In this document: piece after piece, positions 17,031 through 39,978 of the stretch | Layout of the letters: every line of letters begins with the position of its first letter | Position numbering within the stretch: the first letter of the stretch is position 1 | From: an uncultured Oscillospiraceae bacterium | GTDB lineage: Bacteria; Bacillota; Clostridia; Oscillospirales; Oscillospiraceae | Length of the DNA stretch: 40,009 nt | Reading direction: 5' to 3' | Assembly: GCA_947589545.1 (NCBI GenBank) | Contig: CANQBA010000035.1 | Span: 1 to 40,009 of the forward strand | Program-made: the position numbers and the translations under genes | Notes under the pieces: model-generated | The model's input: only the letters and a program-made list of their open reading frames with translations | Databases searched by the model: none | What the model was told of the DNA's origin: nothing

Positions 17031-17078
17031 GGATGGCCCACGGAAACCCGGGCGGGGGCCATCCTCGGTCTGTTTTTT
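17031..17078 (+). terminator. Terminator-like hairpin before the first tRNA-half repeat
   Basis: GGATGGCCC and GGGCCATCC form a 9-bp stem with a 16-base loop. A short spacer and TGTTTTTT follow. A similar placement (hairpin, then TTTTTGAAAC) is seen before the intact tRNA gene. Confidence 0.6.
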
Positions 17079-17355
17079 GAAACGCGAAACGTGCCGGTCC
17101 TTGACGGCAAAATTTCTCTCCCAAAAATCTGATTTCCTCTTGAAATTCACGGTCAAATCTGTTATATGACTACTTGCGCCCCCCAACCGCGCCCGCAGCT
17201 TAAGCTGGATAGAGTGTCAGACTCCGACGTTTCAGGTGAGTTTGGGAGCGATTACGGTCAAAGCCCTTGCGGCGCAAGGGGTTTCGGATTTGCAGAGAAG
17301 AAAAAACAGCGCCGTTGACTACATTTTGACTACTAATTTTTGAGAATCGACTACC
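17072..17355 (+). repeat. tRNA-Arg 5'-half junction repeat, copy 1 (most decayed)
   Basis: Three parts are present. (a) An upstream segment homologous to that of the intact tRNA, with promoter TTGAAA (17140-17145), 17 bp, TATATG (17163-17168; altered -10). (b) A tRNA-Arg 5' half at 17189-17228, ending at the anticodon-loop sequence CTCCGAC; it carries a T-to-C change at tRNA position 8 and a C-to-T change plus an inserted A in the D-stem. (c) A 127-bp block at 17229-17355 starting GTTTCAGG, containing hairpin CCCTTGC-GGC-GCAAGGG, and ending in three GACTAC repeats (17315, 17324 and 17348 regions). Homology to the other copies stops at GACTACC. It is interpreted as an attL-like junction. Confidence 0.85.
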
Positions 17356-17418
17356 GGGGTTTTGAGTCTGATCATTCATATACATAAAAAAGCAGCCAGC
17401 AAAAACTGGCTGCTTTTT
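17175..17418 (+). ncRNA. Predicted half-tRNA transcript 1
   Basis: Transcription from the copied tRNA promoter would begin near 17175, pass through the 5' tRNA half and the 127-bp block, and stop at the terminator ending at 17418, giving about 244 nt. The weakened -10 box (TATATG) suggests low expression. Existence is inferred only. Confidence 0.35.
17391..17418. terminator. Terminator of unit 1 left end (bidirectional)
   Basis: AGCAGCCAG/CTGGCTGCT stem with an A-run before and T-run after. It can end the rightward half-tRNA transcript and the leftward GH3 operon, which stops at 17474. Confidence 0.85.
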
Positions 17419-17473
17419 GTGCTTCTTTTCGATTGAACAGTTGCGGTTCTTCTGTCAGAAAAGCAATTTTCTT

Positions 17474-19826
17474 TCAACCTCTGATCATCATCCCTATCGC
17501 TCGGAAAAAATGTCCGTTTGCTATCTCCACCAGGCCCTTGGCAACTCCGTCGCTCAGTGTGCCGCCGGCATTGATTGCAGAGGCGCGGATGGGACAGTCT
17601 GTGGCACAGATGACCATCATCTTGAATGCGGGATTTGACAAATCTCTTTTTCCACCAAAGCTCTTGGCGATGATGTTCTCGGTGACGGAGTACACGATCT
17701 TCATGATGAGGGAGTGGTCCTTCATTTCCATGCTGCTGTTGTCTAAGGTATAACTGCCTTTTTTCGGCTCTGGCAATGGAGGAACAGCCCGTCCCATGGC
17801 CTTTTCCCAGTCAGTGCGGGATGGCGCACCGTGGGGCTTTTCATACCAGCTCCCCGTCTGCCATGCGGGGGCAGGGATGCGTTCCCCGGCGATTTGTACC
17901 TCGCCGCGCAGCCGCACATCCCGGCTGGATGCGGCAAGCTCGATTTCATAGGTTCCTACAGGCGTTTTCCAGCCGTTGTCCCAAATGGCAAAGCAGCGGT
18001 CGTCCAAAGTGAAGGACACCTCTTTCTGCTCTCCGGGAGCCAGCTCCACGCGGGCAAACCGCTTAAGCTCCCGCAGAGGGCGGTGAGGTCCGTCCTGGGG
18101 CGGGACCACATAGAGCTGCACCACCTCCGCACCGGCCGTTGAGCCGGTGTTCTTGACAGTCGCCGTTACACTGCGCCCGTCGATCTTCAAATCGGTGTAC
18201 TCAAAATTAGTATAGCTGAGGCCGAAGCCGAAGGGGAACCGCACGTCCACCCCGGCCTTGTCGTAATAGCGGTAGCCCACATATATGCTCTCCCGGTACT
18301 CCGGGTGGTACACACCGAAGGTGTCTTTACTGGCAACGAAGTCATACCGCATGGGCCAGCTCTCGGTGAGCTTGCCGGAGGGATTTGCCCTCCCGGTGAG
18401 CAGGTCCGCCGCAGCCTGGCCGCCCGCTTGGCCGGACAGGCCCATGTACAGCACGGCCTTTACCTTGTCGAACCAGGGAAGCTCCATGGGACTGCCCCCC
18501 AATAGCACCACTACGGTATTGGGATTGGCCGCGCAGACGGCCTCGATCATGCGGTTATGGCCCTCCGGCATGGCCATGTCGTCCCGGTCCAGGCCCTCGG
18601 ACTCATAGCGGTCCGGCAAGCCGGCCACCACCACAGCCGTCTTTGCGCTCCCGGCAAGCTTGGCCGCCTCGCGAAGTGATTCCTCAGTCACGTTCCCGTC
18701 CTTATCACAGCAGGGGCAGAAGGGAACGTCCGGGAGAGCGTCGGTGAGGCTTATAAGCTTTGTGGGGTTTATGTGGCTGGAGCCGGCCCCCTGATAGCGA
18801 AACTCTTTGGCCATATGGCCAAAGATAACCATATCTGTCTCTTTGGCCGGCAAGACGTCGTCGTTTTTCAGCAGTACCGCGCCCCCTCCGGGCGATCTCC
18901 AGCGCCAGGGCATGATGAGCCTCAAAGTCAACCTCTCCCCTGCTTTGCCGCTGGGAGGATAACGCTATGGTGAGGATTCGCCGGACGGAGGCGTCAATGT
19001 CCGCCTCGGACAGTGTGCCGTCCTTCACCGCTTTCAGCGCGGCCTTCTCCATGAATTTGGCCCCGCCGGGCATATTGAGATCGCACCCGGCTTTGAAAGC
19101 CGCTATGCGGTCGTTCAAAGCCCCCCAGTCGGTGACCACCATGCCGTCAAAGCCCCACTCCCGGCGAAGCACATCGGTGAGAAGCCACTTGCTGTCGCTG
19201 GAGTGGACGCCGTTTATCTTGTTGTAGGAGCACATGACCGTCCGGGGCTTTCCCTTCTTCACCGCCGTTTCGAAGGGAGCCAGATAGATCTCCCGGATGG
19301 CCCGCTCGTCCGCCTGACAGTCCCCCATCATCCGCTTGTACTCCTGATTGTTCATGGCAAAGTGCTTCAGGGAGGCGGCGGCGCCGGTACTCTGAAGCCC
19401 CCGGATAAATGAGGCAGCCATCTCCCCGGCGTGGGCCGGGTCCTCGGAGAGATACTCGAAGTTCCGCCCGCACAGGGGGTTTCGCTTGATGTTGCAGCCG
19501 GGGCCCAAAACTACCGTTACCCCGGCGGCGTGGGCCTCTTTGCCGATGGCCTCACCCTCTCGCGTGTACAGTTCTGTATCCCAGGTTGCCCCCACCGTCA
19601 CAGCTGTGGGGAAACAGGTGGCGGGCAGCGAGTCGTGGACGCCGATCATATCCGCCTCGGCTTCCTGACACCGCAGGCCATTGGGACCGTCAGACATCTT
19701 AAATGCCGGGATACCGTACTTTGGCATGGACTTGGATTGCCAAATGTCCGCGCCGGTGCAGTAGGCGATCTTGTCCTCCAGCGTCATCCGCCGGATGATC
19801 TCATCCACATTACGTTCAACACTCAT
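17474..19826 (-). pseudogene. GH3 beta-glycosidase, split by a frameshift
   Basis: The N-terminal part (start 19826, GTG-free ATG) is a normal GH3 barrel with the nucleophile Asp233 in VVTDWGA and substrate residues KHFAMNNQE. At about 18885, after EIARR (residue 314), the frame is lost. The usual AAxES residues are missing, and AVLLKND continues in another frame through the second domain, the fibronectin-like domain (GFGLSYTNFEYTDL) and the clostridial C-terminal tail ending IGMMIRG at 17474. A small non-triplet deletion explains this. Unless programmed recoding occurs, only the N-half is made, lacking the domain that carries the acid/base. It is the third gene of the operon, overlapping the end of the GH78 gene by 11 bases. 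The intact tail suggests a recent lesion, or a sequencing error. Confidence 0.8.
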
Positions 19827-22347
19827 AGACGTATTCTCCCTTCGTCACAGTTTTGGGTTCCTGTCCCGGCAGACTGATCTCCGCCGTGGTGTTTACGGGA
19901 ATGCTGATGGTATAGCGAACCTTATCTCCCGCCCTCTCCCAGCGGACGGACACAGCGCCATAGACGCTTTGATAGGCAAAATCCGCAAAGGTGAAGTGCC
20001 CGCCGGGTCGCGGCGCGATTTTGAAATGGTTCTCCCTGTCGGGCTTTATGCCGCACATGACGGAGAACACCCACTCAAGGCTGGCACCCTTGGAGTAGTG
20101 GTCCAGCGAGGCGATGCCACCCTGGGCCTCTGTACCCTCCCAGGATTCCCAGACGGTTGTTGCGCCCGCCTTGGGCATGAAGAGCCAACCGGGCATCTCC
20201 TCGTTTTCCAGGAGCTTATAGGCGTACTCGATATCCATGTTCCCCAGCACATAGAGGATCAGCGGCGTGGAGAGAAATCCGGTGCCTACCCGCCATCCAT
20301 AGTGCTCCATGGCGGCGAGAAGCCGCTTTTTCGCGTATCCGGTCTGGGTCTCGTCCAGCAGATTGAAATACAGCGGGCGAACCAGGCACGCCTGCCGGTC
20401 GGTGTCAAGGGCGTACTCCTTTGTTGCCACAAGCTCTTGATAGGCGCCCCGGCACCCGTCCCGGTACTCCCGGTAGAATGATAAATCGTCCGACTTGCCC
20501 AGCACCTCGGCGATCTCCGCCATGACGGACATGACATAAGCGGTATAGGCGGTGGACACCTCCGGGTGAGGGGCCACCATGTCCGTCCACTTGCCCCGGT
20601 GGATGTCCGCCGGCTCCGCCCACTCGCCGTAGGACTGGCCGGCGTTGACGGCGTATTTCTTATTTGGCCCCTTCAATCCCAGCGGCTTTGCCAGAAGGCC
20701 CAGCTTCCCGCACCGTTTCGCCATGAACCTGGCATAGTGAGCCATAGCGTCGTAATTTTCCGCAAGTATCCTCCCGTCACCGTACATCTTCCACAGCCGG
20801 TAAGGGATCAGCACCCCGGCATCGGCCCAGCCCACGGAGCCGTTCATGGTGTCCATGTAGAAGTCCACGCCTCCCGCCGGGGCGATTTGGGGAAAAGCCC
20901 CATTCTTCCGCTGCCAGTCGGTCATATCACGGACGTGCTTGCGAGCGAAGGGGAAGTAGTTCATCAGGTAGTTTGCCGTGACGCAGAAGATTTGGCTGTC
21001 CCCGGTCCAGCCATGGCGCTCGCGGGTGGGGCAGTCGGTGGGCACGTCGGCGGAGTTATTTTTGGTGCTCCACAGGGTGTTCTCCACGAATTTGTTGAGA
21101 AGCGGGTTGGAGCTGTCGAATTTGGCTGTCACCTCCAAATCGGAGTAGACAGCGATGGCGGTGAAGTCCTCCGGCGTGAACGGCACATCGGTATCCACCA
21201 GCACATACTGAAAGCCAAAGATGGCAAATTTCATCTTGTACTCGTTGAGACCCTCCCGGCAGGTGTAGATGACCTGCTGGAGGGGCGTGGTGATCTTCTT
21301 GTTGGAGCACTGGATGTTCTTCTGGGTGAACTCGCCATCTCTATCCAGCATTTCCCCAAATCGGAGAAACACCCGTTGGCCGCGCTTCGCGGTCAGGGAA
21401 AACGCAATGTACCCCGCGATGTTCTGGCCAAAGTCCAGCACCTTTTTGCCGGAGGGGGTGGTGATGAGGATCGGCTTAAGAGTCTCATGTTCGGTGACGG
21501 GCACATTGTTGGAGGCGGTGGGGACTACCTTATGCCGGGTGACTTTTGCCGTGCCCGAATAGCTGGGTACACGCCCGGCCTCCACGACCTCGCCGTCCTT
21601 GTTGTCGGCAAAGCGGATGGGGCCGTCGTTGGACCAGCGCCAAGCACCGTCCGTACCGATAACGGTCACGGAGTCGTCAGACGCGGTGATCTCCAGCTGG
21701 GCCAGCAGCTTAGTCTCCGTGCCGTATTGGTTGCGGAGCCCCCATGCCCCGCAGCTACCGCGATACCAGCCGTCCGCAAGCTCAAAGGTCAGCTCGTTTA
21801 AGCCATTTTGAAGAAGGCCGGTCACATCGTAGGTCTGATACTGTACCCGTTTGCGGTAGTCGGTGTGGCCGGGGGCCAGCACAAAATTCCCGATCCGCCG
21901 CCCGTTCAGGCAGCCCTCATAGAGCCCACAGGCGGTAACATAGAGCCGGGCCTTCACGGTGCCTTTGACCTCAAATGTCTTTTTAAAGCAGTCCACGGGG
22001 CAGCGTTCCTTTTTGTTGACCTTGTAGTTCCCCGTGATCCACCTTGCCTTCCAGTCCGATGGTTCCAGTAGCCCCATCTCAAAGTGAGCCTCGCTCCATT
22101 CTCCTGGCTCTCCGTTCTCGTCCCAAAGCCGCACCCTCCAACGGACGACCTCACGGCCTTTGAGCGGGATGGGGTACTCGGCGTGCATGGCGGAGCCCTC
22201 CACCCTCCCGGAGTCCCACTCGTCTGTGACGATCTGCCACGCCGTCTGGGTGACGCCGCCCTCGCAGTTCCACATAAGTCGGGGGCGGGGAATATCTATA
22301 CCGATGGGGTCAATAAGGTATTCGCATCTGAGTCTGCCCGCTCTCAT
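19816..22347 (-). CDS. GH78 alpha-L-rhamnosidase (unit 1)
   Basis: This 843-residue enzyme lacks a signal peptide and is therefore cytoplasmic. It has the standard GH78 order: N-terminal beta-sandwich domains (residues 1 to about 270, with [19 protein letters not shown] and [14 protein letters not shown]), an (alpha/alpha)6 barrel, and a C-terminal beta domain. The catalytic acid is Glu443 in [13 protein letters not shown] and the base is the Glu in TTVWESWEG. It releases terminal L-rhamnose from small glycosides. The ATG overlaps the symporter stop (ATGA), so the two are coupled. Its paralogue is in unit 2 (35342-37981), with shared motifs throughout but clearly different sequence. Confidence 0.95.
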
Positions 22348-23801
22348 TTGTGCCCCTTCCTTGCGGCTATCTCCGCCTGCTCACGGGGCAGGTTTTTCTC
22401 GACGTTCAAAAACAGGAGAAGCGCGATCATGATGACGGCTGTGATGATCTCAAGGCCCAGGAAGAAAAAGATAAACACATTCTGCGTAGAGGCGTTTTGG
22501 GTATACGCCACGGTTTGCTGTGTGACCTCATCGAAAATAGGGGCCTTGTAGCCGGCGGAGGACAGGCACATATTAAACAAACCGTTGGCAATTCCAGAGA
22601 AGACGGTGAGAATGATGCTGTAAGCTGACGCGGACATACCGTCACAGCGGAAGCCCGCCTTCCACTCAATGTGATCGAGCACATCGGCAAACAGCGCCAT
22701 AAACACATAAGCGCAGGGCAGTCCGCCGATGTTCTTGATGAACTGGCCGATGAGTACCACAACCATGTTCCGGGGCGCAAGAAGACACACGGCTCCACCG
22801 ATGGCGTAGAGAACAAATCCCGCTGCGGTGACATTGCGCTTACCAAACTTCTTTGCCAGAGGCCACACAGCGAAGATGCCGATACCCATAGGGATGCCCC
22901 CGATAACGGACACCATGGTCTGTGTTATGCCGTCATTGTAGGAGCCCAGCACGTAGCTGCAATAATAGAAAAGGGAAACGTTTTTCAAATTCGTACCCAG
23001 GGTATAGATGAGAAAATAGAGGATTATTACCACCCAGTATCTGTCTGTCAGCAGAGCTTTGAGCTGACGGCCCACGGAGACTGACTCACCGGTTTCCCCG
23101 CCGCTTTCCTCCGTCACACGTTCCTTTGTGTAGTAATACTCCAACAACGTCAAGGGAAGGGCAAGAATGGATATGACGCTCATGGTCACGATCCACGCGG
23201 ATTTGTTGACGCCCATTGCCGGAAGTACAACCATGGGGAACACGAGAGCCACGATGATGCCGGACACCATCACGGAGGCCACGTTATTGAACACCGAAAG
23301 ACTTCCGCGCTCCTTGGAATCGCGGGTCGACAGCGGTACCATCATCGTGTGGCTCATGTTGTAGATGGTGAAAGCAAATGAGTAAAAGAGATTGTAGGAC
23401 AGCATGACCCAGATGACCTGAACCGTCTCAGAACCGGACGGCACCGTGAACAGCAGGATACCTGTCACCGGCACAAGCACTGCTGAAAGCAGAAGCCACG
23501 GTCGGGCCTTACCCTCCTTCGTCCGGGTGCGGTCAATGATCTGCCCCATCAGCACGTTTGTGACTGCGTCTATCACCTTAGAAATGATAGGGAATACCGC
23601 CAGAAACGCTCCTCCCCAAACACCGGTCAGCTTCAAAACATCGGTATAATAGACGTTCAAAAAGCTTGCCAGCACGGCACCTAAAAGGAGCGCGCCGGTG
23701 GGTCCCACAAGATACCCAAGCCACTGTTCCTTTTTCGTCACCGATGCGCCTTGGATGCGCGAGGTCAGCGCGGGGCGCGCGAATAATGTCTTCGAACCCA
23801 T
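22344..23801 (-). CDS. GPH-family sugar:cation symporter (unit 1)
   Basis: The 485-residue membrane protein has 12 predicted helices and the GPH signature set. These are a [12 protein letters not shown] start, [25 protein letters not shown] (the D..MG...DRT..K.GK.RPW loop 2-3 motif, interrupted here only by normal substitutions), and a helix 10-11 region [15 protein letters not shown]-like ([17 protein letters not shown]). GPH proteins import glycosides, pentosides or hexuronides with Na+ or H+. It is first in the leftward operon with GH78 and GH3, so it probably imports a rhamnoside. The start follows GGAGCTGGGGAG. Confidence 0.92.
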
Positions 23802-23824
23802 CTCCCCAGCTCCATTTCGTGAAT

Positions 23825-23910
23825 TTAGGCAAATAGCTGCCCATCTATATATTTATTTTATCACTTTTGCCTAACGCCGTCTTGTATATATGTTGTATTT
23901 GTGATAGAAT
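23825..23910. promoter_or_regulatory. Divergent control region of unit 1: AraC-type half-sites and promoter
   Basis: TTAGGCAAA (23825-23833) and TTTGCCTAA (23866-23874) are perfect inverted 9-mers, centres about 41 bp apart, close to four helical turns. Rightward promoter for the AraC gene: TTGTAT (23882-23887), 17 bp, TAGAAT (23905-23910). The leftward symporter promoter has only A/T-rich -10 candidates, as expected for an activator-dependent start. Confidence 0.5.
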
Positions 23911-23940
23911 TGTTGCAAAATGGCGCAAGGAGGCGTGACC

Positions 23941-25122
23941 GTGACAGGGTTTGATTACGAATATCTTTGTACTACCATAGGGAGGCTTTCAAGCGTCCCC
24001 GCAAGGGTCTATGAGAGGCGAAAAAAGGTGTTCTTTTTTAGTGCAATGCCTCTTAAATACGACCCTATAAAAAAGTATGAGGAAAATATACTCTCACTTC
24101 CATCCCCGGTTGGCTACGTGGTCACGGACGACTTTGATTTTTACGGCACAGTCCGACGCGGCGAAACGCTTCTCGTTTTTGGCCCCACGCGCCAGATCCC
24201 CCGTACCGGACCCGAAACACGCAGACTTGCTTTTGAGCTGGGTGTTCCAAAGGATGAAGTCAAGGAATTTGTGACTTCCATGGAGGCGATCCTGCCCCTG
24301 CCTTTGGATTTTCTTCTGACGATCCTTTGCATGCTCCACTATGTATTCACCGGAGAAAAGCTTGAGCTGCGGGATCTGAAAATAACCGATCTGCAGGAAC
24401 CGAAGCCTGATTCCATGCCACCGGAGGATCTCTCCGACGGCGAACCCGGCAACAACGTGGACATCTATAACGCATACCGGGCCGAGCGGGAGATTCTGGA
24501 CATAGTCCGCTCCGGCGATGTAGAAAAACTGGACGCCTGGGCAAGCTCCGCACCGCCGATCCGCGCGGGCCAAACCTCCGCTGAAACGATGAGACAGGAA
24601 AAAAATATTTTCACAGTCACAGCGACCTTGGTCTCTCGTGCCGCCATTGACGGGGGTATGGAGGTGGACGATGCTCTCCGGCTCAGCGACTCCTTCATAA
24701 GAAAATGCGAGCTCCTCACTTCCCTGGACTCGGTGTCAAAGCTTCAGCTTGACATGGTGCGGCGCTACACCAACGAGGTCTCTTACGTCCGTGAATGCGG
24801 GGCCGTGGGCGACCTTGCGAAAAAAGTAACGGCATATGTCCGCCGTCACCTTTCCGAATCCATCCGCACCGAGGACGTCGCCCGGTCGCTCTATATGAAC
24901 CGCAGCAGCCTATCCACTAAATTCAAAGCCCAGCAGGGTGTCACCCTTACCGACTTTATACGGAATATAAAGATTCAGGAGGCCAAACGCCTTCTCACCC
25001 ACTCCGAAAGAAGTCTCGACAGCATAGCCGACTACCTGGGCTTCTCCTCCCAGAGCCACTTCACCCGCGTCTTCAAAGCACAAACCGGCCTCACTCCGAG
25101 GGAATATCGGGAAGAACGATGA
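23941..25122 (+). CDS. AraC-family transcriptional regulator (unit 1)
   Basis: The 393-residue protein has a long N-terminal sensor-like region (YVVTDDFDFYGTV near residue 60) without a recognisable cupin, and a C-terminal AraC domain of about 100 residues. The AraC domain has two helix-turn-helix units: EDVARSLYMNRSSLSTKFK, and SLDSIADYLGFSSQSHFTRVF then GLTPREYREER. GTG at 23941 is chosen because AAGGAGG lies 7 bases upstream; the in-frame ATG at 23920 has no site. It is divergent from the symporter-GH78-GH3 operon and is probably its activator. Its size and organisation match the AraC protein of unit 2. Confidence 0.9.
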   Translation: MTGFDYEYLCTTIGRLSSVPARVYERRKKVFFFSAMPLKYDPIKKYEENILSLPSPVGYVVTDDFDFYGTVRRGETLLVFGPTRQIPRTGPETRRLAFELGVPKDEVKEFVTSMEAILPLPLDFLLTILCMLHYVFTGEKLELRDLKITDLQEPKPDSMPPEDLSDGEPGNNVDIYNAYRAEREILDIVRSGDVEKLDAWASSAPPIRAGQTSAETMRQEKNIFTVTATLVSRAAIDGGMEVDDALRLSDSFIRKCELLTSLDSVSKLQLDMVRRYTNEVSYVRECGAVGDLAKKVTAYVRRHLSESIRTEDVARSLYMNRSSLSTKFKAQQGVTLTDFIRNIKIQEAKRLLTHSERSLDSIADYLGFSSQSHFTRVFKAQTGLTPREYREER

Positions 25123-25178: not shown

Positions 25179-25457
25179 TTTGAAATGCAACCCACGGAAA
25201 TATAAGACGGCAAAAATTCTCTTCCAAAAATCCGATTTGCTCTTGAAATTTCAGTGCGAATCTGTTATATTACTACTTGCGTCAACCAAATGCGCCCGTA
25301 GCTCAGCTGGATAGAGTGTCAGATTCCGACGTTTCAGGTAATTTTGTGAGGGATTACGGTCAAACCCCTTGCGGCGCAAGGAGTTTCGGATTTGCAGAGA
25401 GTAAAAAACAGCGCCGTTGACTACTGTTCGACTACTAATTTTTGAGAATTGACTACC
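25179..25457 (+). repeat. tRNA-Arg 5'-half junction repeat, copy 2
   Basis: Promoter TTGAAA (25243-25248), 17 bp, TATATT (25266-25271). tRNA half at 25292-25330 with one change in the anticodon loop (C to T before the CCG). Block 25331-25457 begins GTTTCAGG, has the hairpin CCTTGC-GGC-GCAAGG and three arm-like repeats (25417-25424, 25428-25435, 25449-25457). An extra TGACTACTGTT at 25156-25166, just left of the copy, resembles the same repeats. The region 25123-25178 otherwise shows nothing. Confidence 0.88.
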
Positions 25458-26431: not shown

Positions 26432-26461
26432 GTTTGTCGTCCTTTCTGTGTTTTGAGGGGC

Positions 26462-26483
26462 GGGCCGCCAAGAGAGGCGGCCC
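26462..26483 (-). promoter_or_regulatory. Intercistronic stem-loop between uxuA and uxuB
   Basis: GGGCCGCC-AAGAGA-GGCGGCCC. It has no T-run and probably stabilises mRNA. A very similar GGGCGGC hairpin recurs at 33755-33777 in the same operon. Confidence 0.5.
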
Positions 26484-26491
26484 CTACAAGG

Positions 26492-31529: not shown

Positions 31530-31542
31530 GGTATGGACCTCC

Positions 31543-33726
31543 TCACTCCGGTTTTCTGATGGTCTGCAAAACACGGTTCAGCTGCTTGATGCTCTCTTCG
31601 TCCGCGCCGCCCTGTTTTAATAGGCTCAGGAGCGTCATGCGGCCCATCATACGCACAAGGCCGGGGTTGTCCTTCACCGCTGTGGCCACATCGCCCCGGC
31701 TTTCGGCACCCTTTGCCATCATCTGAGCCACAATAGCTCCCGCCTTGGGGTTCGACTGAAGATCAGCGAGCTTGTCGTTGACGGAGAAGTACTCAGGATC
31801 GGAGGTCTCGCTGTCAAACCAGTTTGTCACGGCGGTTCTGCCCGGAAGCGAGTAAGCCGGATTCGGTTCCGATGCCTTGCTTATCTCAATCACGTCCTTG
31901 CTCCCGCCGGCGCGGGCCTCGATGGAGTGGGGGCCAGTGATAGGGACGTTGAATTTAAAGACAATGTGTCCGGTCTGTGTCTCGAAGAGCTTGCCATCCA
32001 CGTAGAGGGTGACTTTCGGTCGGTTGGAGTATGCCTTCACCTCCGTCACGTCCTCGCACCTGTCCACATACCGAGAACCGCACAGGTGGACGAAGGGCTC
32101 TTTTTTGTTCCAGGCGGCCTTGTAGAGATAGAAGGTGTCCTTTTTAAGCTGCCGGTCGAAGGTCACAAGGCCCTTCTGGTTCTGCCCGTTTTTGCCTCCC
32201 TCGTCCCTGCCGTCGGCGGCGAAGTCAAAGAGGTTCCACACGTGGGTTGCCCAGAGCCAGGGGCGCTTTTCAATCATGGCCAGTATGTGCTCATGATATA
32301 CCGCCTGGTAGCTTTCGGTGTAGTCGCCCTTTTCGGGGTGGCTGGACTGATAGGCGGGGTTTGCGTCCGCGCCGTATTCGGAAAATCCGATGCACCTGTC
32401 TGGATATTTGGCGTGATACTCGTCGAAGAACTCGTCGTTCTGCTCAAGCTCCCCCAAATACCAGCCGAAGTACAGGTTGTAGCTGTTCACATCGGGGATC
32501 TCAAGGATCGGGCTGTCGGTCTCCAGCATGAACACGTTGGCAATGGTGGTCTTTCTGGTGGGATCAAGACGGTGGCAGAGGTCATTAAGAAGCCGGTGGT
32601 TTTCCAGCAGATCCTCATTCACCGCGCTGGCGGCAGTGATCTCGTTGGAGAGGCCCCAAACTGCGATGGATGGGTGATTATAATTCTGTACGATCAGCTC
32701 CTCCATTTGGGAAAGGGTGTTTGCCCGCCCGTTTGTCATGTGCATGGTGATGTACGGTATCTCCGCCCAGACCACGATGCCGTTTTCATCGCACAGGTCG
32801 TAAAATTCCTGTGCGTGCTGATAGTGGGCCAGCCGCAGGGTGTTTGCCCCAAGCTCCCGGATGATCTCCATGTCCTCCCGGTGGTCCTCACAGCTCAGGG
32901 CGTTGCCCTTTCCCCAGCGATCCTGGTGGCGGCTGACGCCCCGGAGGGGATATTCGCGCCCGTTGAGGATGAGGCCGCGCTGTGGGTCGAACTCAAACAC
33001 CCGGCAGCCGAAGCGGGCGCTGACCTCGTCGCCGCTCTTGAGCCGCGCCGTGGCGGTGTAGAGATAGGGATCGTCAAGTCCATCCCAGAGGCGGACGTTT
33101 TCAATGGTGAACACGGCGGTCCTCTCTACCCGCTGGGTCCGGCCGTCTACGGTGATCTCCACCGATTTGGCGTTGTGCCAGGTCTCCACAGTGACAGTGG
33201 CAGTCCTCATTGAAAGATCCACCTCCGGCGTGACCTTGATGCCCGGCGTGCCGCAGTACCCAAGCTCAAAGTGCTCTGCCGGAACCACTATCAGCTTCAC
33301 ATCCCGGTATAGGCCGCCGTAGAAGGTGAAGTCCGCCTTTTGCGGATACACTGTGTCGTTGTCGGAGTTATCCACCAGGACGCAAAGCTCGTTCGTGTCG
33401 CGCAGATGATCCGTCAGCTCCACCCGGAAGGCGGAGTAGCCACCCTCATGACGGCAGAGCTTCTCGCCGTTTAAGATAACCTGGGCAGTCATAGCCGCGC
33501 CGTCAAACTCTATAAAGACGCGCTCGTTCTCCCCGTGCGCGGGGCGGTCAAAGGTTTTTGTATATACAGCCGTACCGCGCCAGTAGTCGTTGCCGCCGTC
33601 CTGCCCGTCCACCGAGTTCCAGGTATGGGGGAGGGTGACATTCCGCCAGTCGTAGCACAACGCCGCGTCAGCGCCACTTTGTTTGGCAAAGCGCCAGTTG
33701 TCGTTGAAATTGATGATTCTACGCAT
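31543..33726 (-). CDS. GH2-family glycosidase (beta-galactosidase-like) with helical tail
   Basis: The 727-residue enzyme has the usual sandwich, Ig-like and barrel domains (NWRFAKQSG at the start; YGGLYRDVKLIV at about 136-147). The acid/base is Glu362 in WGLSNEI and the nucleophile Glu450 in CIGFSEYGAD. Residues about 645-727 add a helical tail with small repeated motifs (LQSNPKAGAIVAQMMAKG; RMMGRMTLLSLLKQGG), a type also appended to clostridial GH3 enzymes such as that in unit 1. No signal peptide. The ATG at 33726 has AAAAGGAGCGC upstream; the earlier in-frame start has none. Substrate: a beta-galactoside or beta-glucuronide. The latter would feed uxuA/uxuB, but the active site does not let me decide. 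Confidence 0.92.
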   Translation of the reverse strand: MRRIINFNDNWRFAKQSGADAALCYDWRNVTLPHTWNSVDGQDGGNDYWRGTAVYTKTFDRPAHGENERVFIEFDGAAMTAQVILNGEKLCRHEGGYSAFRVELTDHLRDTNELCVLVDNSDNDTVYPQKADFTFYGGLYRDVKLIVVPAEHFELGYCGTPGIKVTPEVDLSMRTATVTVETWHNAKSVEITVDGRTQRVERTAVFTIENVRLWDGLDDPYLYTATARLKSGDEVSARFGCRVFEFDPQRGLILNGREYPLRGVSRHQDRWGKGNALSCEDHREDMEIIRELGANTLRLAHYQHAQEFYDLCDENGIVVWAEIPYITMHMTNGRANTLSQMEELIVQNYNHPSIAVWGLSNEITAASAVNEDLLENHRLLNDLCHRLDPTRKTTIANVFMLETDSPILEIPDVNSYNLYFGWYLGELEQNDEFFDEYHAKYPDRCIGFSEYGADANPAYQSSHPEKGDYTESYQAVYHEHILAMIEKRPWLWATHVWNLFDFAADGRDEGGKNGQNQKGLVTFDRQLKKDTFYLYKAAWNKKEPFVHLCGSRYVDRCEDVTEVKAYSNRPKVTLYVDGKLFETQTGHIVFKFNVPITGPHSIEARAGGSKDVIEISKASEPNPAYSLPGRTAVTNWFDSETSDPEYFSVNDKLADLQSNPKAGAIVAQMMAKGAESRGDVATAVKDNPGLVRMMGRMTLLSLLKQGGADEESIKQLNRVLQTIRKPE

Positions 33727-33754
33727 AATGCGCTCCTTTTCAAAATAATAGCTG

Positions 33755-33777
33755 TTGGGCGGCGAGGGGCCGCCCAA
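33755..33777 (-). promoter_or_regulatory. Intercistronic stem-loop between symporter and GH2 genes
   Basis: TTGGGCGGC and GCCGCCCAA pair around a short loop. There is no T-run in the transcript direction, so an mRNA stability or processing element is likely. Confidence 0.5.
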
Positions 33778-33803
33778 TCATAAGGAAGGGAAAAAGGAGG
33801 TTA

Positions 33804-35321
33804 TCAGTTTTCCGCTTTCAGCGCGGCCTTCTTCTCGGCGATGCGTTTCTGGACGCTCACCATCTCCTCACGGGACAGCGGGCAGAACTTCATGGCAACA
33901 ATGGTGATGATCCAACCCAAAATCGGGAAACCGAACTTGACGGCCATTGCCACCCAAAAGACGCCGGGGGTAGAGGGATCGCCGGGCTGGGGCATGACAT
34001 CGGTGTAGCCAATGAGAGCCACGGCGCCCGTGGCGATGACGGCGGAGAGAGACGTAATGAGCTTGTCGATGAGGCTGTAGGTACCGGTGACCACGGCAGG
34101 GATATATTTGCCGGAGCGGTCAAGCTCATAGTCGATGGTGTCAGCCATAAAAGAGTTGTTGGCGGTGGTGACGCACATATTGGAGCCGTTCTGCAAAAGT
34201 GTCAGCAGAACATAGATGATCATGGCGGGGCTGAGCATCACGCCGATCTGCCTGGGGTCGATGATCAGGAAGAACGCAAAGGTCACGACTGAAATACCCA
34301 TGCTGACCCAGGTCCAGAACGTGATGCCCTTTTTGCTGCCAAACCGCCCAACGTACTTAGCGCCGAAGGCGGCAAAGAAGATGGAGGGGATCATGCTGAT
34401 CACCATCAGCATGGTGGCAATCTGAAGATTGCCGATGAGGATGCCGTTGATAAGGGTGTTAATGACCGCCTGGGTCATGGTCTGCTGGGCAATCTTGTCC
34501 GAAGCGTTGGAAGCGATATAGCACTGGAGAGGCCGGTTGTGGGCCAGCACGTTCCACATATCCCGGAGCTTCAGGTTCTCATGTTTTTTGGTGGTGCCCT
34601 CCAAATACTCCGGCTTGTCGTATTCGCTGATACCGATGCATACAAGGATTGTACCAATGGCGGCCACAGCCACGGTGGCCCACACGGCGGAAGTCAGGAA
34701 CGCCTGATTGTAGTTGTAGCTCACAACGCCGTCCGCGCCGGTGACGGGGGTACCGAATTTGGGGAGAAGCACCATGTTCAGCACCATGGTCATGATCATA
34801 GGCACCAGGTAATTCATAGCGGTGGTCCACACGCCGATGGTGGGCCGCTGTTTGGGGTCGTTGGTCATGATGGCAGGAAGGGTCTGGGCGGTCATATTGG
34901 TGATGGTATAGCCGATGATGTAGACGATGTAGGTGAGGGTGAACACTACGATGCCCAGCACTCCGGCAATGCCCTTACTGGACAGGAAGCTGAACATACA
35001 AAGGAGTGCCAGGGCCTCCACGGCAAAGCCCACAATCATCAAAATTCTAAGTTTACCCCACTTTGTGTTGACCCGGTCATAGACGAAGGCCAGAAGGGGG
35101 TCTGTGATTCCGTCCAGGATACGGGAAAAAGCCACGATGCTGCCCACGGTCACGGTAGCGATGCCGTAGCCGATGTTGCCGGCGTAGGACGCCAAACCGA
35201 TCAGGGAGTAGACGCTCATGCCGACTAATGCGTTACAGGCCTGCAGGATGATCTGCCAGGTCTTGGCACGGCGGTACTGTACGCCGTCGATCTGGCTTGC
35301 GGATAGCTTTTCTTTTGCCAT
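33804..35321 (-). CDS. GPH-family sugar:cation symporter (unit 2)
   Basis: This 505-residue, 12-helix transporter has the GPH loop motif SRILDGITDPLLAFVYDRVN followed by TKWGKLR, and the helix 10-11 signature ANNSFMADTIDYELDRSGK. The C-terminus is a lysine-rich cytoplasmic tail (VQKRIAEKKAALKAEN). It probably imports the glycoside that the co-transcribed GH78, GH2, GH43 and GH1 enzymes then cleave in the cytoplasm. Sequence motifs differ clearly from the unit 1 symporter, so the substrates may differ. It is second in the operon, 20 bases after the GH78 gene. Confidence 0.93.
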   Translation of the reverse strand: MAKEKLSASQIDGVQYRRAKTWQIILQACNALVGMSVYSLIGLASYAGNIGYGIATVTVGSIVAFSRILDGITDPLLAFVYDRVNTKWGKLRILMIVGFAVEALALLCMFSFLSSKGIAGVLGIVVFTLTYIVYIIGYTITNMTAQTLPAIMTNDPKQRPTIGVWTTAMNYLVPMIMTMVLNMVLLPKFGTPVTGADGVVSYNYNQAFLTSAVWATVAVAAIGTILVCIGISEYDKPEYLEGTTKKHENLKLRDMWNVLAHNRPLQCYIASNASDKIAQQTMTQAVINTLINGILIGNLQIATMLMVISMIPSIFFAAFGAKYVGRFGSKKGITFWTWVSMGISVVTFAFFLIIDPRQIGVMLSPAMIIYVLLTLLQNGSNMCVTTANNSFMADTIDYELDRSGKYIPAVVTGTYSLIDKLITSLSAVIATGAVALIGYTDVMPQPGDPSTPGVFWVAMAVKFGFPILGWIITIVAMKFCPLSREEMVSVQKRIAEKKAALKAEN

Positions 35322-35341
35322 AGTGATTCTCCTTTTAAAAA

Positions 35342-37981
35342 TTATTTTATTACACGCTCTCCCGGGCCCAGGTTGATCTGGCGTCCGTCCGGGAGCGTAA
35401 TGTCCGCGCTTGCGTTGGAGGGGATGCGGAAGGTGTAGGTTATCTCGCCGTTTTCTTCATATTTCCAGCCGCTTACAATCTCGCCCAGGGGAGATAAATA
35501 TCTTGCCTCGGCATAACCTAGGAGCGCGCTGGGTTCCGGCGCAATATGTATTTTACCGTTTTCCACCCGGATGCCGCAGACGCCGGAGAAAAGCCAGCCG
35601 CAGACGGCCCCCTTGGAGTAGTGGTTGAGAGACGCCTTCACCTCGCCCTTCTCATTTATTCCGTCCCAATCCTCCCAAATGGTGGTGGCCCCGTGCCGCA
35701 CCTCATAGAGCCAGCCAGGACACGTGTCCTGAAGCAAAAGCCTGTATGCCGTGTCCGTGTACCCGTACTTCGCCAGCACCGGCAGGAGGGCTGGGGTGGA
35801 GAGGAAGCCGGTGTTCAGGTGGTAACCGCACTTTATGACAAGCTCGTTCAGGTCCGCTGCCGCGCGGCGCTTCTCGTCCTCGCTCAGAAGGTCGAAGTCA
35901 ATGGCCCGAACGTACTCCGCCTGACGGTCCAATTGGATCACTCCGTTTTTCGCGGCGATGAAGTGGAAGGCATTTTTGGCACCCTCGCCTGTTGCGGCGT
36001 ACCGCTGTGCGTTTTCGGATTTCCCAAGTATCTCGGAGATTTCGGCAAGGAGTCTCCCGGAATATGCGTAGTAGGCCGTGGCGACCTTGCTTTGCGGCTT
36101 TCCCATGGCGTCGATGGAGCTTACATCCGGCTCGCACCACTCGCCATAATCCGTACCCGTCTCAATGGCAAAATCGGCGTATGGGTTCTCGTTATCACTC
36201 TTTGGCGGGGCGAATTTCTTCATCATCTCCTGAAGTGCCTCCGGGGGCATGTTCTTCAGCATGGCCCGGTACTGCTCCGGAATGGCGTTCATGTCCATGG
36301 GCGCGGCGCTTTTCTTTTGCCCGGCGCGGCTTTCAAGATACTCATACCAGCGGCTCATCATCTCGTAATTTTCCGCAAGCACCCGCTTGTCGCCGTATCT
36401 GCGATACAGCGCCCACGGGACGATGATGGAGGCATCGCCCCACCCCACGGACCCGGCAAGAAGCTCGGTAGTGAAGGTGGGCCGGTTATTTTTGGGCGCT
36501 ATATTCGCCACCTTCCCGTCCGGGTACTGACATATCCTGCACTCCCCAAGCCACTTGCGGACGACGCTCCCGCAGTCCATAAGATAAAGTCCCGTGTCGA
36601 TAAAAACGCCCATGTCCCCGGTCCAGGCCGCCCGCTCGCGGGTGGGGCAGTCCGTGGGCACGTCGCAGAAGTTGGACTTCATGCTCCAGAGAGTGTTATC
36701 CACTAACTTATTGACATCTTCATTGCCGCAGGTAAAGAAGCCCGTGCGCTCCATGTCGGAATATACGGCGATAGCGGTGAACACAGCGTTTGAAAGGTCA
36801 ATATCCGTCTCCACCTTGGCGTACTGGAAGCCCCAGATGGAGAATTTCGTCTTGTAGTGGTTGATGCCCTCCCTGCAGGTGTAAGTGACCTGCTGGCGGG
36901 TGCCGCCCTCCTTGTGGCGCTTGCGGTCCTGAAAATTCTCCTGGGTAAAATTCCCGTTCTCGTCCAGCGTCTCTCCGCAGGTCAGGGTGATCGTATCTCC
37001 CGCGTGGGCAGTCAGGGTAAACTCTATGTAACCGGCCAGGTTCTGCCCAAAGTCCAGTACACCTTCGCCGTTCGGCGTGGTGATGAGCTTTCCTGGAAAT
37101 CTCTCATGCTCCGTTATAGGGACACAGTTGGAGGCACAGAAGTTCTCCGTCCCATAGTCACGCACCGTCACCGCGTGAAAGCCTGAAAGCTCCTCAAGCC
37201 GCGCGTCCACCACCTCGCCCTGCTGCATATCGTCCATGCGTATGGGCCCGCGCTGAGTCGCCTCCCAGCTCCCGTCTGAGAGGCAGACCGGCTTTCCGCC
37301 CACCTCCAGTTGGAGCCACAGGGCCACATCCTCACCGTAGAGATTCCTGTCCCCATCCACGCCGGAGCAGCTGCGGTACCAGCCGTCGCCGAGGATAACA
37401 AGTATCTCGTTCTCTCCCTCCCGCAGAAGCTCCGCCACGTCGTATGTCTGAACAAAAAGGCGCTGATCATAGCTGGATGCGCCCGGTGCCAGAACAAAAT
37501 CTCCCACCCGCGTCCCGTTGAGCCACACCTCATAAAGCCCGTGGCAGGTCACGTAGAGCCGCCCCGGACCGTTCACAGCGTCCACCTTGAAGGTCTTCCT
37601 CAAATAACTGGCGGGCTTGTGCTCCTCCGGGTCACGCTCAATCTCCGGGTCGATCCATTGGGCTTTATAGTCGCTTTTCTCCAAAAGCCCCATCTCGAAG
37701 ACGGCCTCAACGCTCCAAGGCCCCGCCTTGCCGTTTTCGTCCCACAGCCGCACCTGCCAGCGGATTCGGTCACGACTATGGAGCGGCGCGCCGATGAGCG
37801 CGCGCATTTCATCGCTCTCGACCATGCCGCTGTTCCAAACTTCCTCGCCGTCCAAATATGCCCGAATCTCATAAGCTGTCTGTCTCAAGCCGCCCTCACA
37901 CAGCCATGTAAGGCACGGCGCCTTGATATCTATTCCAACGGGGTTTGTCATGTACTCTGTTTTCAGCGTTTTTGCTGTCAT
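35342..37981 (-). CDS. GH78 alpha-L-rhamnosidase (unit 2)
   Basis: The 879-residue cytoplasmic enzyme has the same domain order as the unit 1 enzyme. The catalytic acid is Glu449 in DCPTRERAAWTGD and the base is the Glu in TTIWEDWDG. Residues about 553-608 hold an insertion rich in Met, Pro, Lys and Glu (AAPMDMNAIPEQYRAMLKN, PPEALQEMMKKFAPP) between two helices of the barrel; the unit 1 enzyme has a shorter, unrelated segment. ATG at 37981 is preferred because GGGGAG lies 8 bases upstream; a GTG three codons earlier is too close to the site. It is first in the eight-gene operon. Confidence 0.94.
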   Translation of the reverse strand: MTAKTLKTEYMTNPVGIDIKAPCLTWLCEGGLRQTAYEIRAYLDGEEVWNSGMVESDEMRALIGAPLHSRDRIRWQVRLWDENGKAGPWSVEAVFEMGLLEKSDYKAQWIDPEIERDPEEHKPASYLRKTFKVDAVNGPGRLYVTCHGLYEVWLNGTRVGDFVLAPGASSYDQRLFVQTYDVAELLREGENEILVILGDGWYRSCSGVDGDRNLYGEDVALWLQLEVGGKPVCLSDGSWEATQRGPIRMDDMQQGEVVDARLEELSGFHAVTVRDYGTENFCASNCVPITEHERFPGKLITTPNGEGVLDFGQNLAGYIEFTLTAHAGDTITLTCGETLDENGNFTQENFQDRKRHKEGGTRQQVTYTCREGINHYKTKFSIWGFQYAKVETDIDLSNAVFTAIAVYSDMERTGFFTCGNEDVNKLVDNTLWSMKSNFCDVPTDCPTRERAAWTGDMGVFIDTGLYLMDCGSVVRKWLGECRICQYPDGKVANIAPKNNRPTFTTELLAGSVGWGDASIIVPWALYRRYGDKRVLAENYEMMSRWYEYLESRAGQKKSAAPMDMNAIPEQYRAMLKNMPPEALQEMMKKFAPPKSDNENPYADFAIETGTDYGEWCEPDVSSIDAMGKPQSKVATAYYAYSGRLLAEISEILGKSENAQRYAATGEGAKNAFHFIAAKNGVIQLDRQAEYVRAIDFDLLSEDEKRRAAADLNELVIKCGYHLNTGFLSTPALLPVLAKYGYTDTAYRLLLQDTCPGWLYEVRHGATTIWEDWDGINEKGEVKASLNHYSKGAVCGWLFSGVCGIRVENGKIHIAPEPSALLGYAEARYLSPLGEIVSGWKYEENGEITYTFRIPSNASADITLPDGRQINLGPGERVIK

Positions 37982-38002
37982 TTGCCACACTCCCCATGTT
38001 GT

Positions 38003-38119
38003 AATTGTGGATTATATACATATTTTAAAGGAAACGTCCCAGGCAGTAAAGTCACAAATTCCCGAAAGATTACACTCATTCAGGAAGTTTCTTGATTTCT
38101 CAAAATATTATGATATAAT
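38003..38119. promoter_or_regulatory. Divergent promoters of unit 2
   Basis: Leftward: -10 TATAAT (38016-38011) with no good -35 at the proper distance, typical for an activator-dependent operon. Rightward for the AraC gene: TTGATT (38092-38097), 16 bp, TATAAT (38114-38119). The 70 bases between contain related GGAAAC/GGAAGTTTC tracts that may include AraC sites; no clean repeat is visible. Confidence 0.55.
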
Positions 38120-38159
38120 TTAAGTATAAGAGTTTGAATGGGAACGGAGGCGCCGGCAA

Positions 38160-39392
38160 ATGGAATATTCCATGACCACAGAGGAGCAAAATCTTCTGTT
38201 ATTAGAGAAAATGATCCCTCCCGGCGAAAAATTCTACGTTTGGTGCTATGACGAGAACGGCCAGTGCATCGCCACCTCCTGTCCAGAGTCAGAACGTGAA
38301 GTCTTAACGAAGGCGTTTCGGATATTTGGCGGTACTGAAAAGGCTATGGATTACGCAGCTTCCAAGGAGATACTGCCCATATTGGTGGGTTCGCCCATTG
38401 GTATGCAGTGGGCCATCACCATTGAGCCGGTGCGCAACCGCGGTCTTATCTTCGTCATGGGGCCCGTGTTCTACTCCATGCCCGTGAAAAATCAAGTCCG
38501 CGAAGCTCTCCGCCCATACCGGGACACCATAGAGGACGCCATCTGGGCAGGAGAGCTTACGGAGCGGCTTGGCTCCATGCCGGTCCTGCCCCACGCCATC
38601 TTTGTCCGCTATGTGACCATGGTTCACAACACCCTGACCGGGCAGAAACTTGATGTTTCGATCCTTTTCAGCGGTCAGGAGGGCGGACAGCCGTCTCCGA
38701 TCCCGGCTCCGGTAAGGCGTGACAGAACGGAAATCTATTTAGCGGAGCGCGCCCTTCTCCAAATGGTCCGAAACGGGGATATTAATTATCAGGATGCTCT
38801 GAATCGCAGCAGCAAGTTGAGCTCCGGCGTCCCGGTAGATGGTGGAGAGCCCCTCCAAAAATACAGGATCAGCATCATCGTCTTTACATCGCTGGTATGC
38901 CGCGCCTCTATGGAAGGAGGGTTGAGTCCGGAGATCGCATACCCCTTGGGCGACTCCTATATTGAGGCCGCCGTACAGGCCCGTGACCTTGGAGAACTCA
39001 ATGCGCTTGCGTTGTCCATGTACCATGATTTTATCTACCGCGTTCATAATCTGAACTCCAACCCTGACTACTCAGCGGTGATTCAAAAGTGTTGTGACTA
39101 TATTGAGCTCAGCGTGGGTCGTAACATTCGGATCGCGGATCTGGCCGCCCTTACGGGGTATACGGAATATTATCTTTCCGAAAAATTCAAAAAAGAGACG
39201 GGAACGCCCCTTTTCCTCTATATCCGCTGTGCCAAGATAGAGCGGGCCAAGCTTCTTTTGGAGTCTACCTCTCTCTCCGTCAGAGAAATTGCCGAGGCCC
39301 TTGCGTTTAATACGCCAAACTACTTTTCCAAGTGCTTTCGGGAGATTGCCGGCTGTACCCCCGCCCAGTATAGAAAAGAACATACCCGTTGA
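38160..39392 (+). CDS. AraC-family transcriptional regulator (unit 2)
   Basis: The 410-residue protein has an N-terminal sensor-like region of about 300 residues (KFYVWCYDENGQCIATSCPE near residue 24) and a C-terminal AraC domain with two helix-turn-helix units: ADLAALTGYTEYYLSEKFK, and REIAEALAFNTPNYFSKCFRE then CTPAQYRKEHTR. GGAGG lies 10 bases upstream of the ATG. It is divergent from the eight-gene operon and is its likely activator. It resembles the unit 1 AraC protein in length, domain layout and position beside the right-hand tRNA half. Confidence 0.92.
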   Translation: MEYSMTTEEQNLLLLEKMIPPGEKFYVWCYDENGQCIATSCPESEREVLTKAFRIFGGTEKAMDYAASKEILPILVGSPIGMQWAITIEPVRNRGLIFVMGPVFYSMPVKNQVREALRPYRDTIEDAIWAGELTERLGSMPVLPHAIFVRYVTMVHNTLTGQKLDVSILFSGQEGGQPSPIPAPVRRDRTEIYLAERALLQMVRNGDINYQDALNRSSKLSSGVPVDGGEPLQKYRISIIVFTSLVCRASMEGGLSPEIAYPLGDSYIEAAVQARDLGELNALALSMYHDFIYRVHNLNSNPDYSAVIQKCCDYIELSVGRNIRIADLAALTGYTEYYLSEKFKKETGTPLFLYIRCAKIERAKLLLESTSLSVREIAEALAFNTPNYFSKCFREIAGCTPAQYRKEHTR

Positions 39393-39500: not shown

Positions 39501-39716
39501 TTGCAATTTGGTCTGGAATCTGTTATATTACTACTTGCGCCAAGCAAATGCGCCCGTAGCTCAGCTGGATAGAGTGTCAGACTCCGACGTTTCAGGCGAT
39601 TGTATGAGCGATTGCGGTCAAACCCCTTGCGGCGCTAAATGTTTCGGATTTGCAGAGAGTGAAAAAATTGCGCCGTTGACTACTGTTCGACTACTAATTT
39701 CTGAGAATTGACTACC
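39501..39716 (+). repeat. tRNA-Arg 5'-half junction repeat, copy 3
   Basis: Promoter TTGCAA (39501-39506), 17 bp, TATATT (39524-39529). tRNA half at 39550-39588, identical to the intact gene over all 39 bases. Block 39589-39716 begins GTTTCAGG. Its GC hairpin is degraded (CCTTGC-GGC-GCTAAA), but the three arm-like repeats are kept (39676-39683, 39687-39694, 39708-39716). Confidence 0.88.
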
Positions 39717-39778
39717 GCTCGTTTATTCCCTTCTCATAAGGAATTTTTGGCACGTCGGATCAATCGACGTGCCTTTTT
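39536..39778 (+). ncRNA. Predicted half-tRNA transcript 3
   Basis: Start near 39536 and T-run end at 39778 give about 243 nt, the same as the other two copies. Here no leftward operon exists that could need the terminator, so it is best explained as ending this rightward transcript. Confidence 0.45.
39749..39778 (+). terminator. Terminator of unit 3
   Basis: GGCACGTCG and CGACGTGCC form a 9-bp stem followed by five T. On the opposite strand the stem is followed by A residues, so it works rightward only. Confidence 0.88.
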
Positions 39779-39852
39779 AAATCTCCTTTTTGAAACACGA
39801 AACGCGAAAATTCTTGACGGCAAAAAAACTCTCCCAAAAATCTGATTTGCAC

Positions 39853-39881
39853 TTGAAATCCGCAGTCAAATCTGTTATATT
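39853..39881 (+). promoter_or_regulatory. Promoter of the intact tRNA-Arg gene
   Basis: TTGAAA (39853-39858), 17 bp, TATATT (39876-39881). The upstream segment from about 39786 (TTTTTGAAACACGAAACG) matches that of repeat copy 1 at about 17072. Confidence 0.8.
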
Positions 39882-39901
39882 ACTACTTGCGCCAAACAAA
39901 T

Positions 39902-39978
39902 GCGCCCGTAGCTCAGCTGGATAGAGTGTCAGACTCCGACTCTGAAGGTCGTGCGTTCGAATCGCATCGGGCGTACCA
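39902..39978 (+). tRNA. tRNA-Arg (anticodon CCG)
   Basis: A complete 77-nt cloverleaf. Acceptor GCGCCCG pairs with CGGGCGT (one G-U at the end); D arm GCTC/GAGT; anticodon stem TCAGA/TCTGA with loop CTCCGAC and anticodon CCG at 39936-39938, reading CGG. T arm is GTGCG-TTCGAAT-CGCAT. CCA is encoded. This is the only complete copy; its 5' half, up to the end of the anticodon loop (39940), is shared with the three displaced halves. It would be the regenerated target of the last insertion. Confidence 0.97.

Follow-up and report, generated by a model that had tools for sequence, protein, structure and literature searches.

Three stacked left ends at a tRNA-Arg(CCG) gene of an Oscillospiraceae bacterium: a probable trace of nested, tRNA-carrying mobilizable elements

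How does a single tRNA gene come to be preceded by three copies of its own promoter and 5' half, with whole sugar-utilisation operons set between them? The question is raised by a contig of an uncultured Oscillospiraceae bacterium (CANQBA010000035.1 of GenBank assembly GCA_947589545.1; C35 in our numbering, in which G, C and L mark genomes, contigs and loci), the whole of which, 40,009 bp, is the window analysed here; it is one of the 148 contigs of the assembly and ends 31 bp past the tRNA. The answer favoured below is that the array is probably the left side (three stacked left ends) of integrative and mobilizable elements (IMEs) that became nested and have in part decayed; these elements, together with their remnants, are best read as a new architectural variant of the IMEs that target tRNA genes.

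The only tRNA identified in the window by ARAGORN is tRNA-Arg(CCG) (Table 1). A preliminary description of the locus, made from its sequence, had reported the promoter and 5' half of this gene at three places ahead of the intact copy, with units of 8.1, 14.3 and 0.35 kb between junctions and with sugar-utilisation cargo. All of this was borne out, including the cargo, for which Pfam identifies glycosidase, rhamnosidase, transporter and AraC genes in units 1 and 2. Each displaced half is cut after the anticodon loop (CTCCGAC at junctions 1 and 3, TTCCGAC at junction 2) and runs into a common block of 128–130 bp, here called B. The half-plus-block copies are 92% and 86% identical to the third copy, taken as the reference; when 220 bp of the latter were compared with the window by BLAST, the other two copies were recovered at E values of 7e-79 and 5e-62 and the 5' part of the intact gene at 1e-31, with no other match below E 0.29, and the repeat is therefore not a product of chance. 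Within its own assembly the block is matched (E <= 0.001) by contig C35 alone, two other places matching the tRNA part only. Compared with the intact half, the displaced ones show 3, 1 and 0 differences from left to right, as expected if the leftmost is the oldest.

The opposite end, which we name Lp, is found on another contig of the same genome (C47), where a displaced tRNA 3' half is preceded by TGACTACTGTTTGACTACTG arms and by the bases GGCCTTATAA adjoining the core. A right-end search covering 25 of the 34 genus genomes, and little-decayed 3' halves, located Lp-CTCCGAC-3' half in eight of them (G000, which is the genome of the window, G004, G005, G009, G011, G018, G019 and G022); six of these eight show, after the displaced 3' half, the same reading frame that follows the intact tRNAs of G022, that is, by another right-hand part. 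The earlier picture of serial insertion is in this respect incomplete: there is a further end, by which the 3' half is displaced on the opposite side, and the window contains the left side only.

Complete elements occur in other genomes, on single contigs and in the order 5' half-CTCCGAC-B-complete tRNA-Arg(CCG)-IntA-IntB-relaxase-cargo-Lp-CTCCGAC-displaced 3' half, which we regard as canonical; IntA and IntB denote two tyrosine recombinases. A whole element of 18.1 kb lies on one contig of an uncultured member of the Clostridia (G208, locus L265), with the complete tRNA-Arg(CCG) at 1392–1468, IntA at 5029–6393 and IntB at 6315–7481, followed by a relaxase, restriction-modification genes, Lp, the core and the displaced 3' half; outside its right end lie a fragment of IntA and an IntB, an arrangement that nested or tandem insertion would be expected to produce. 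The same order is found in a Dysosmobacter genome (G206, locus L264), here with two Lp ends, at 13.5 and 16.2 kb. Both loci carry two features of an IME, a site-specific recombinase and a relaxase of their own (MobA/VirD2, PF03432, E 1.4e-38 in L265 and 2.3e-33 in L264), and no mating-pore genes appeared among the open reading frames (ORFs) scanned (10 of the 18 called in L265 and 10 of 21 in L264). In two further genomes a single contig likewise bears both ends, separated by 36.7 kb in G026 and by 106 kb in G063; the recombinases there are broken or repeated. The distance from the core of the outer half to that of the complete tRNA is 158–193 bp in ten loci (nine outside the genus, and G026 inside). 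With a displaced 5' half on the left, a displaced 3' half on the right and a complete tRNA inside, L265 and L264 do not fit the usual tRNA-targeted island; an explanation by ordinary 3'-half islands only is ruled out by the upstream copies of promoter and 5' half and by the complete tRNAs inside elements.

The two ends also resemble each other. The six outer bases of Lp and B beside the core, scored by eye, form an inverted repeat at 6 (G026), 5 (G208), 5 (G206) and 4 (G063) of 6 positions, as would be expected if they were two halves of one site. A joined Lp-CTCCGAC-B is present in G202 and G210; it may be no more than the place where two elements adjoin, and does not prove a circle. Contig C61 of G202 has no end repeat indicative of circularity.

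Whether an incoming element supplies only a promoter and 5' half, as had been proposed, or a whole tRNA can be judged from 13 pairs of an outer 5' half and an inner tRNA. The halves are identical, and hence silent, in 5 pairs and different in 8; among these 8, the inner 5' half is the better partner for the inner 3' half in 5, the two 5' halves match it equally well in 3, and in none is the inner one worse (one inner 3' half among the compared pairs is cut by a contig end). The most telling case is RGIG3791 (L200), in which the inner tRNA (77 nt) has an identical counterpart in G210 and the displaced host half, an ordinary one, differs from the inner tRNA at 8 positions; drift of displaced halves could account for the pairs with single-base differences, but not for RGIG3791. 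Based on the pairing and on this case, we therefore conclude that the canonical element brings a complete tRNA, beyond promoter and 5' half; insertion at the anticodon loop, the other part of the proposal, stands.

Nested insertion is favoured because it accounts for the stacks of both ends, for the inner tRNA and for the symmetry of the site. The attachment site of a canonical element would be Lp-CTCCGAC-B, and insertion, presumably by IntA and IntB, would take place at CTCCGAC, which makes up the anticodon loop (7 nt) of the tRNA-Arg(CCG) in the host. The host gene would thereby be split, its 5' half ending up beyond the left end of the element and its 3' half beyond the right one. It would be replaced by the complete tRNA that the element carries about 190 bp from its left end, and this tRNA would offer a fresh target, so that a later element could insert inside an earlier one; left ends would accumulate ahead of the intact tRNA and right ends behind it. 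Within the genus, a terminator, a copy of the promoter and glycan operons would have been added between B and the tRNA, and the recombinase part would often have been lost, leaving core-bounded cargo units to be exchanged between species. That the window arose by this route, and in the order suggested by its junctions, is what we infer from these comparisons.

Several observations weigh against such a history. No contig of the genus unites left cargo, recombinases and a right end; in three genomes the tRNA that follows B is unaccompanied by recombinases, namely G030 (7 kb), G005 (9 kb) and G202 (9 kb), and full-length IntA (E <= 1e-90) is present in 5 of the 15 arm-positive genomes of the genus, so that repeated loss must be assumed. 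The joined site of the genus type, sought in 199 genomes, yielded chance-like matches only (of five, the two that were read proved unrelated), and no circle or excision was found in the genome sequences searched. In G026, finally, the displaced 3' half at the right end fails to pair with the host 5' half, and this 36.7-kb stretch is therefore not a simple single insertion.

The absence of recombinases noted in the preliminary description holds for the window, in which a recombinase profile derived from 30 integrases of the same genome has no match among the ORFs of at least 30 amino acids; since the contig ends 31 bp past the tRNA, this absence is established for the window only and not for the locus. 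Indeed, in G022 the intact tRNA is followed, on one contig, by IntA and IntB (L082, 8171–10622) and a relaxase, and a second contig of that genome has both IntA and IntB, again just 3' of the tRNA, with a two-component pair in between. Broken recombinase copies are found in G021 and G026, and IntA with an IntB fragment in G063. In the genome of the window, contig C107 carries IntA, IntB, a relaxase and an AAA_25 protein and is 88% identical to the G022 stretch over 4.4 kb, starting 38 bp ahead of the IntA stop; we infer that it follows the end of the window, and a search of the assembly for the bridge between the two yielded a match of 31 bp only, the linking 0.6 kb being absent. IntA and IntB homologues belong to PF00589. 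The solved structures closest to IntA (6emy, 6en0 and 6emz, 'Int protein', E 4e-16) are, we assume, those of the Tn1549 integrase; IntI4 (2a3v) is a weaker match (3e-8), and in this respect the locus departs from an integron, with its integron-type integrase beside a cassette array. The 3.8-Mb assembly of G000 is unusually rich in recombinases as a whole, with 56 Phage_integrase matches that include tandem pairs and a triplet (C45, C60, C68, C74 and C107).

Block B itself looks like an integrase arm: it contains three GACTAC motifs spaced 11 and 21 bp apart, a helical spacing that would be typical for integrase arm sites. The pattern TTGACTACTNTTNGACTACTA was found in 46 stretches of one-per-species genomes of bacteria and archaea, against about 2 expected assuming equal base frequencies. 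A tRNA-Arg(CCG) lies just right of it in 7 of the 46, and 9 further stretches have a different tRNA close by, several with an adjoining integrase; the motif therefore belongs to a wider set of clostridial integrases. The proposed search of genomes for the block after tRNA halves, made with a shorter arm pattern, gave matches in 16 of 149 relatives, namely 15 of the 34 genomes of the genus (that of the window included) and G063 of another genus; beyond the 15, G032 and a partial copy in G010 retain the 5' half and the start of the block. The genus seems to be represented mainly by metagenome-assembled genomes of Oscillospiraceae from rabbit gut, G026 being goat-derived. A strict B pattern had 2 matches among 391 genomes drawn from the class, both within the genus, a number unusable as a prevalence given that the pattern misses known variants such as that of G063. 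A plain inherited flank of the tRNA is rejected as the nature of B, which is missing from the empty relatives G003 and G021; the arm pattern has no match in 18 of the 34 genus genomes. At degenerate junctions (L070 5344, L084 8471, L074 3592 and L086 274–352), the arm part of B is kept and the half-tRNA is gone, the promoter core being also lost where readable, as if half-tRNAs had been deleted after insertion. A D-arm variant, CTTAAGC, is present in 10 of the 21 displaced 5' halves of the genus (that at 17189–17210 of the window included) and in none of the 8 intact tRNAs compared; new units may have been exchanged at already displaced halves.

Occupancy of the site varies between genomes, and the preliminary description thus survives the refutation that it had set for itself, namely uniform occupancy in all relatives together with a block that is ordinary tRNA flank. 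G030 has unit 1 with 93.5% identity along 8196 bp, as far as the core, after which comes the tRNA 3' half; the intact tRNA stands where unit 2 starts in the window, and G030 is the empty site for window units 2 and 3. The chromosomal flanks of the two genomes are 84.6% identical over 3.0 kb, below the value for unit 1, which suggests, for this one pair of genomes, that unit 1 was transferred. The order of units also changes from species to species: behind the left context L3 stands a different unit in each of G027, G012 and G024, and unit R1 is preceded by chromosome in G000 and G030, by L3 in G012 and by L4 in G027. Vertical inheritance of a tandemly duplicated tRNA upstream region, or an assembly artefact, would agree with the frequent ending of contigs at these repeats, but hardly deserves credence given the identical junctions in more than 10 separately assembled genomes, the different units at one junction, the intact empty form in G030 and the complete elements, equipped with recombinase and relaxase, that other genomes contain.

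The mixing of units invites a different view, in which each B-cargo-promoter-5' half unit is an independent, non-autonomous cassette, with a circle joined as 5' half-CTCCGAC-B, moved in trans by IntA and IntB that reside on a separate element carrying the 3' half, the tRNA being a fixed docking site. It would explain the changing partners of L3 and R1, the presence of a unit with no recombinase nearby in G030 and the clean 192-bp B-5' half insert between Lp-core and 3' half by which G202 differs from G200:C63. It would explain, too, why the promoter goes with its left neighbour (mean identity 89.9% in 6 pairs sharing the left neighbour only vs. 68.6% in 14 sharing the right neighbour only; 0 of 5000 label shuffles as extreme). 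The expected link of B to its right neighbour is, on the other hand, weak (86.4% vs. 84.8% background), in a comparison that covers 18 of 33 junctions with labels set by the analyst and related, non-independent sequences. Moreover, a canonical unit, at about 190 bp, would hardly be long enough to form a circle of its own, the 3' half arrived with the inner tRNA in the telling pairs, Lp and B resemble two halves of one site, and identical patterns result if nested insertions later lose their right part. We thus hold independent cassettes to be possible but rather doubtful, and movement in trans may coexist with nested elements. A somewhat more tentative proposal, which we consider unlikely, is a capture platform formed by the intact tRNA-Arg(CCG) with IntA and IntB, at whose anticodon loop operon-sized cassettes (with promoter, 5' half and B) dock serially, the newest nearest the tRNA and each rebuilding it, so that the tRNA would play the role of attI and the glycan operons that of cassettes.

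Exchange seems to affect the right side as well. The part of the unit 2 cargo at 33823–39464 recurs in G009 at 81–85% identity, flanked by two Lp-type junctions, so that cargo is found on either side; and 16.4 kb adjoining the right end on C47, with GH2, arabinofuranosidase, esterase and transport genes, are 99.5–99.8% identical in G011, which points to a recent transfer. The stretch between B and the tRNA is short outside the genus and contains a terminator, a promoter copy and often operons within it. Homologous recombination between the repeats of promoter, half and block (200–300 bp) might by itself shuffle such cargo, with site-specific insertion confined to the distant past: the repeats are long enough, their promoter and block copies are 77–98% alike, and the half-tRNA is deleted at several junctions (L070, L084 and L074). 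This we judge improbable, as promoters accompany the left unit in most pairs, which places the exchange points near the core (G027a/G012a being exceptions), and as the stretch shared by C47 and G011 points to recent transfer on the right side.

Comparison with known systems, as far as the portions of the sources available to us describe them, helps to place the nested elements. IMEs and, as their decayed derivatives, CIMEs at tRNA genes are described in PMC5704250, with accretion and with a direct repeat by which one end of the target is restored, in most cases the 3' end. Shared with them are the tyrosine recombinase, the relaxase, insertion into a tRNA and the lack of recognised conjugation genes among the genes scanned, as well as tandem accretion of functional and recombinase-less elements that retain att sites; the complete tRNA inside and the displacement of host halves to both sides set the present elements apart. 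Units 1 and 2 of the window correspond to CIMEs in having cores and B at their junctions and no recombinase match in the window, where relaxases were sought only through Pfam annotation of the main ORFs. In the Islander survey (PMC4383910), 2083 of 3919 islands have the crossover in the anticodon loop, the displaced fragment is a 3' one in 3760 and a 5' one in 159, and tandems of at least three number 4. Anticodon-loop crossover and an end marked by a displaced tRNA fragment are common to both, but Islander islands have the regenerated tRNA at one end, whereas here 5' and 3' fragments mark the ends and the working tRNA lies inside. The ssrA islands of Dehalococcoides (PMC3146451) are likewise tandem, carry metabolic cargo at one RNA gene and are in several cases without a recombinase; they are bounded downstream by a 20-bp ssrA direct repeat, and copies of promoter and 5' half or an inner complete gene are not described in the part of that source considered here. 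By description only, the Prevotella MTnPi (PMC5704250) can be likened for its two distantly related tandem tyrosine recombinases, and tycheposons (via PMC10872708) for being tRNA-bordered, with a tyrosine recombinase and metabolic cargo; these differ in belonging to marine bacteria and in having the tRNA at the border. Islands with both host halves displaced and a complete tRNA inside were not found described in the portion of the open-licence literature covered, with subscription journals mostly outside it.

If nesting is the correct explanation, this family of elements rebuilds its landing site internally rather than at its edge, which would make nested growth automatic and would let such islands escape tools built to look for a tRNA on one side and a single fragment on the opposite one. 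For one genus of bacteria from the gut of plant-feeding animals, the locus would serve for gathering whole sugar-utilisation operons and passing them from species to species. Target, att sites and presumed enzyme pair are all specified well enough to be put to a recombination test.

Table 1. Features of the 40,009-bp window and the evidence for each
Feature	Position	Strand	Evidence and remarks
Chromosomal left flank, partly rearranged relative to relatives	1..17071		83-89% to G014, G018, G030, G033; 79% to G024
Junction 1: tRNA-Arg promoter and displaced 5' half (half from 17189), ends CTCCGAC	17156..17228	+	3 differences
Left-end block B, unit 1	17229..17356	+	GACTAC arms from 17315
Unit 1 cargo: GH3, alpha-L-rhamnosidase, MFS_2, AraC	17474..25122		Pfam; 93.5% over 8196 bp in G030
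Junction 2: promoter and displaced 5' half (half from 25292)	25259..25330	+	1 difference; in G030, tRNA 3' half right after
Left-end block B, unit 2	25331..25458	+	Arms from 25417
Unit 2 cargo: SDR, UxuA, GH1, xylose-isomerase-like, GH43, GH2, MFS_2, alpha-L-rhamnosidase, AraC	25586..39392		Pfam; part (33823-39464) also in G009
Junction 3: promoter and displaced 5' half (half from 39550)	39517..39588	+	Identical to intact half
Left-end block B, unit 3 (without cargo)	39589..39718	+	Arms from 39676
Terminator-like hairpin and tRNA upstream region, in unit 3	39719..39868	+	Similar 350-bp units in G022
Intact tRNA-Arg(CCG)	39902..39978	+	Loop CTCCGAC 39934-39940, the insertion core
Hairpin 3' of the tRNA, then contig end	39979..40009	+	Identical hairpin ahead of G022 recombinase genes

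Viral contigs with B (L170 and L171) were considered as a sign that a phage brings the block; this was rejected, as the phage of L170 has its own distant integrase, 27% identical to IntA, and a separate displaced 3' half, and thus sits inside the tRNA of a B-type remnant. L170, L171 and L172 correspond to IMG/VR entries 3300031555_003124 and 3300032167_002946; the former contains a siphovirus-like prophage with its own integrase, located inside a tRNA-Arg(CCG) after a B block, with a second displaced 3' half and Lp-like arms about 0.9 kb further. Seven viral matches to the Lp pattern were unrelated, and paired tRNA matches in G121, G139 and G102 are other duplications, without B.

Among minor observations, a tRNA-Arg(CCT) of the same genome (G000:C62; L094, 3062–3338) has two displaced 5' halves upstream, which are also cut in the anticodon loop and run into short blocks of about 50–60 bp that differ from each other, with an integrase 6 kb downstream and no displaced 3' half within 15 kb; this may be another element family with the same trick. 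The GH3 gene of unit 1 (17474–19826) lies in two overlapping frames, corresponding to C-terminal and N-terminal parts, and is therefore broken or misassembled. Next to the array, a small ORF (16367–16777) matches eCIS_core at E 2.9e-5.

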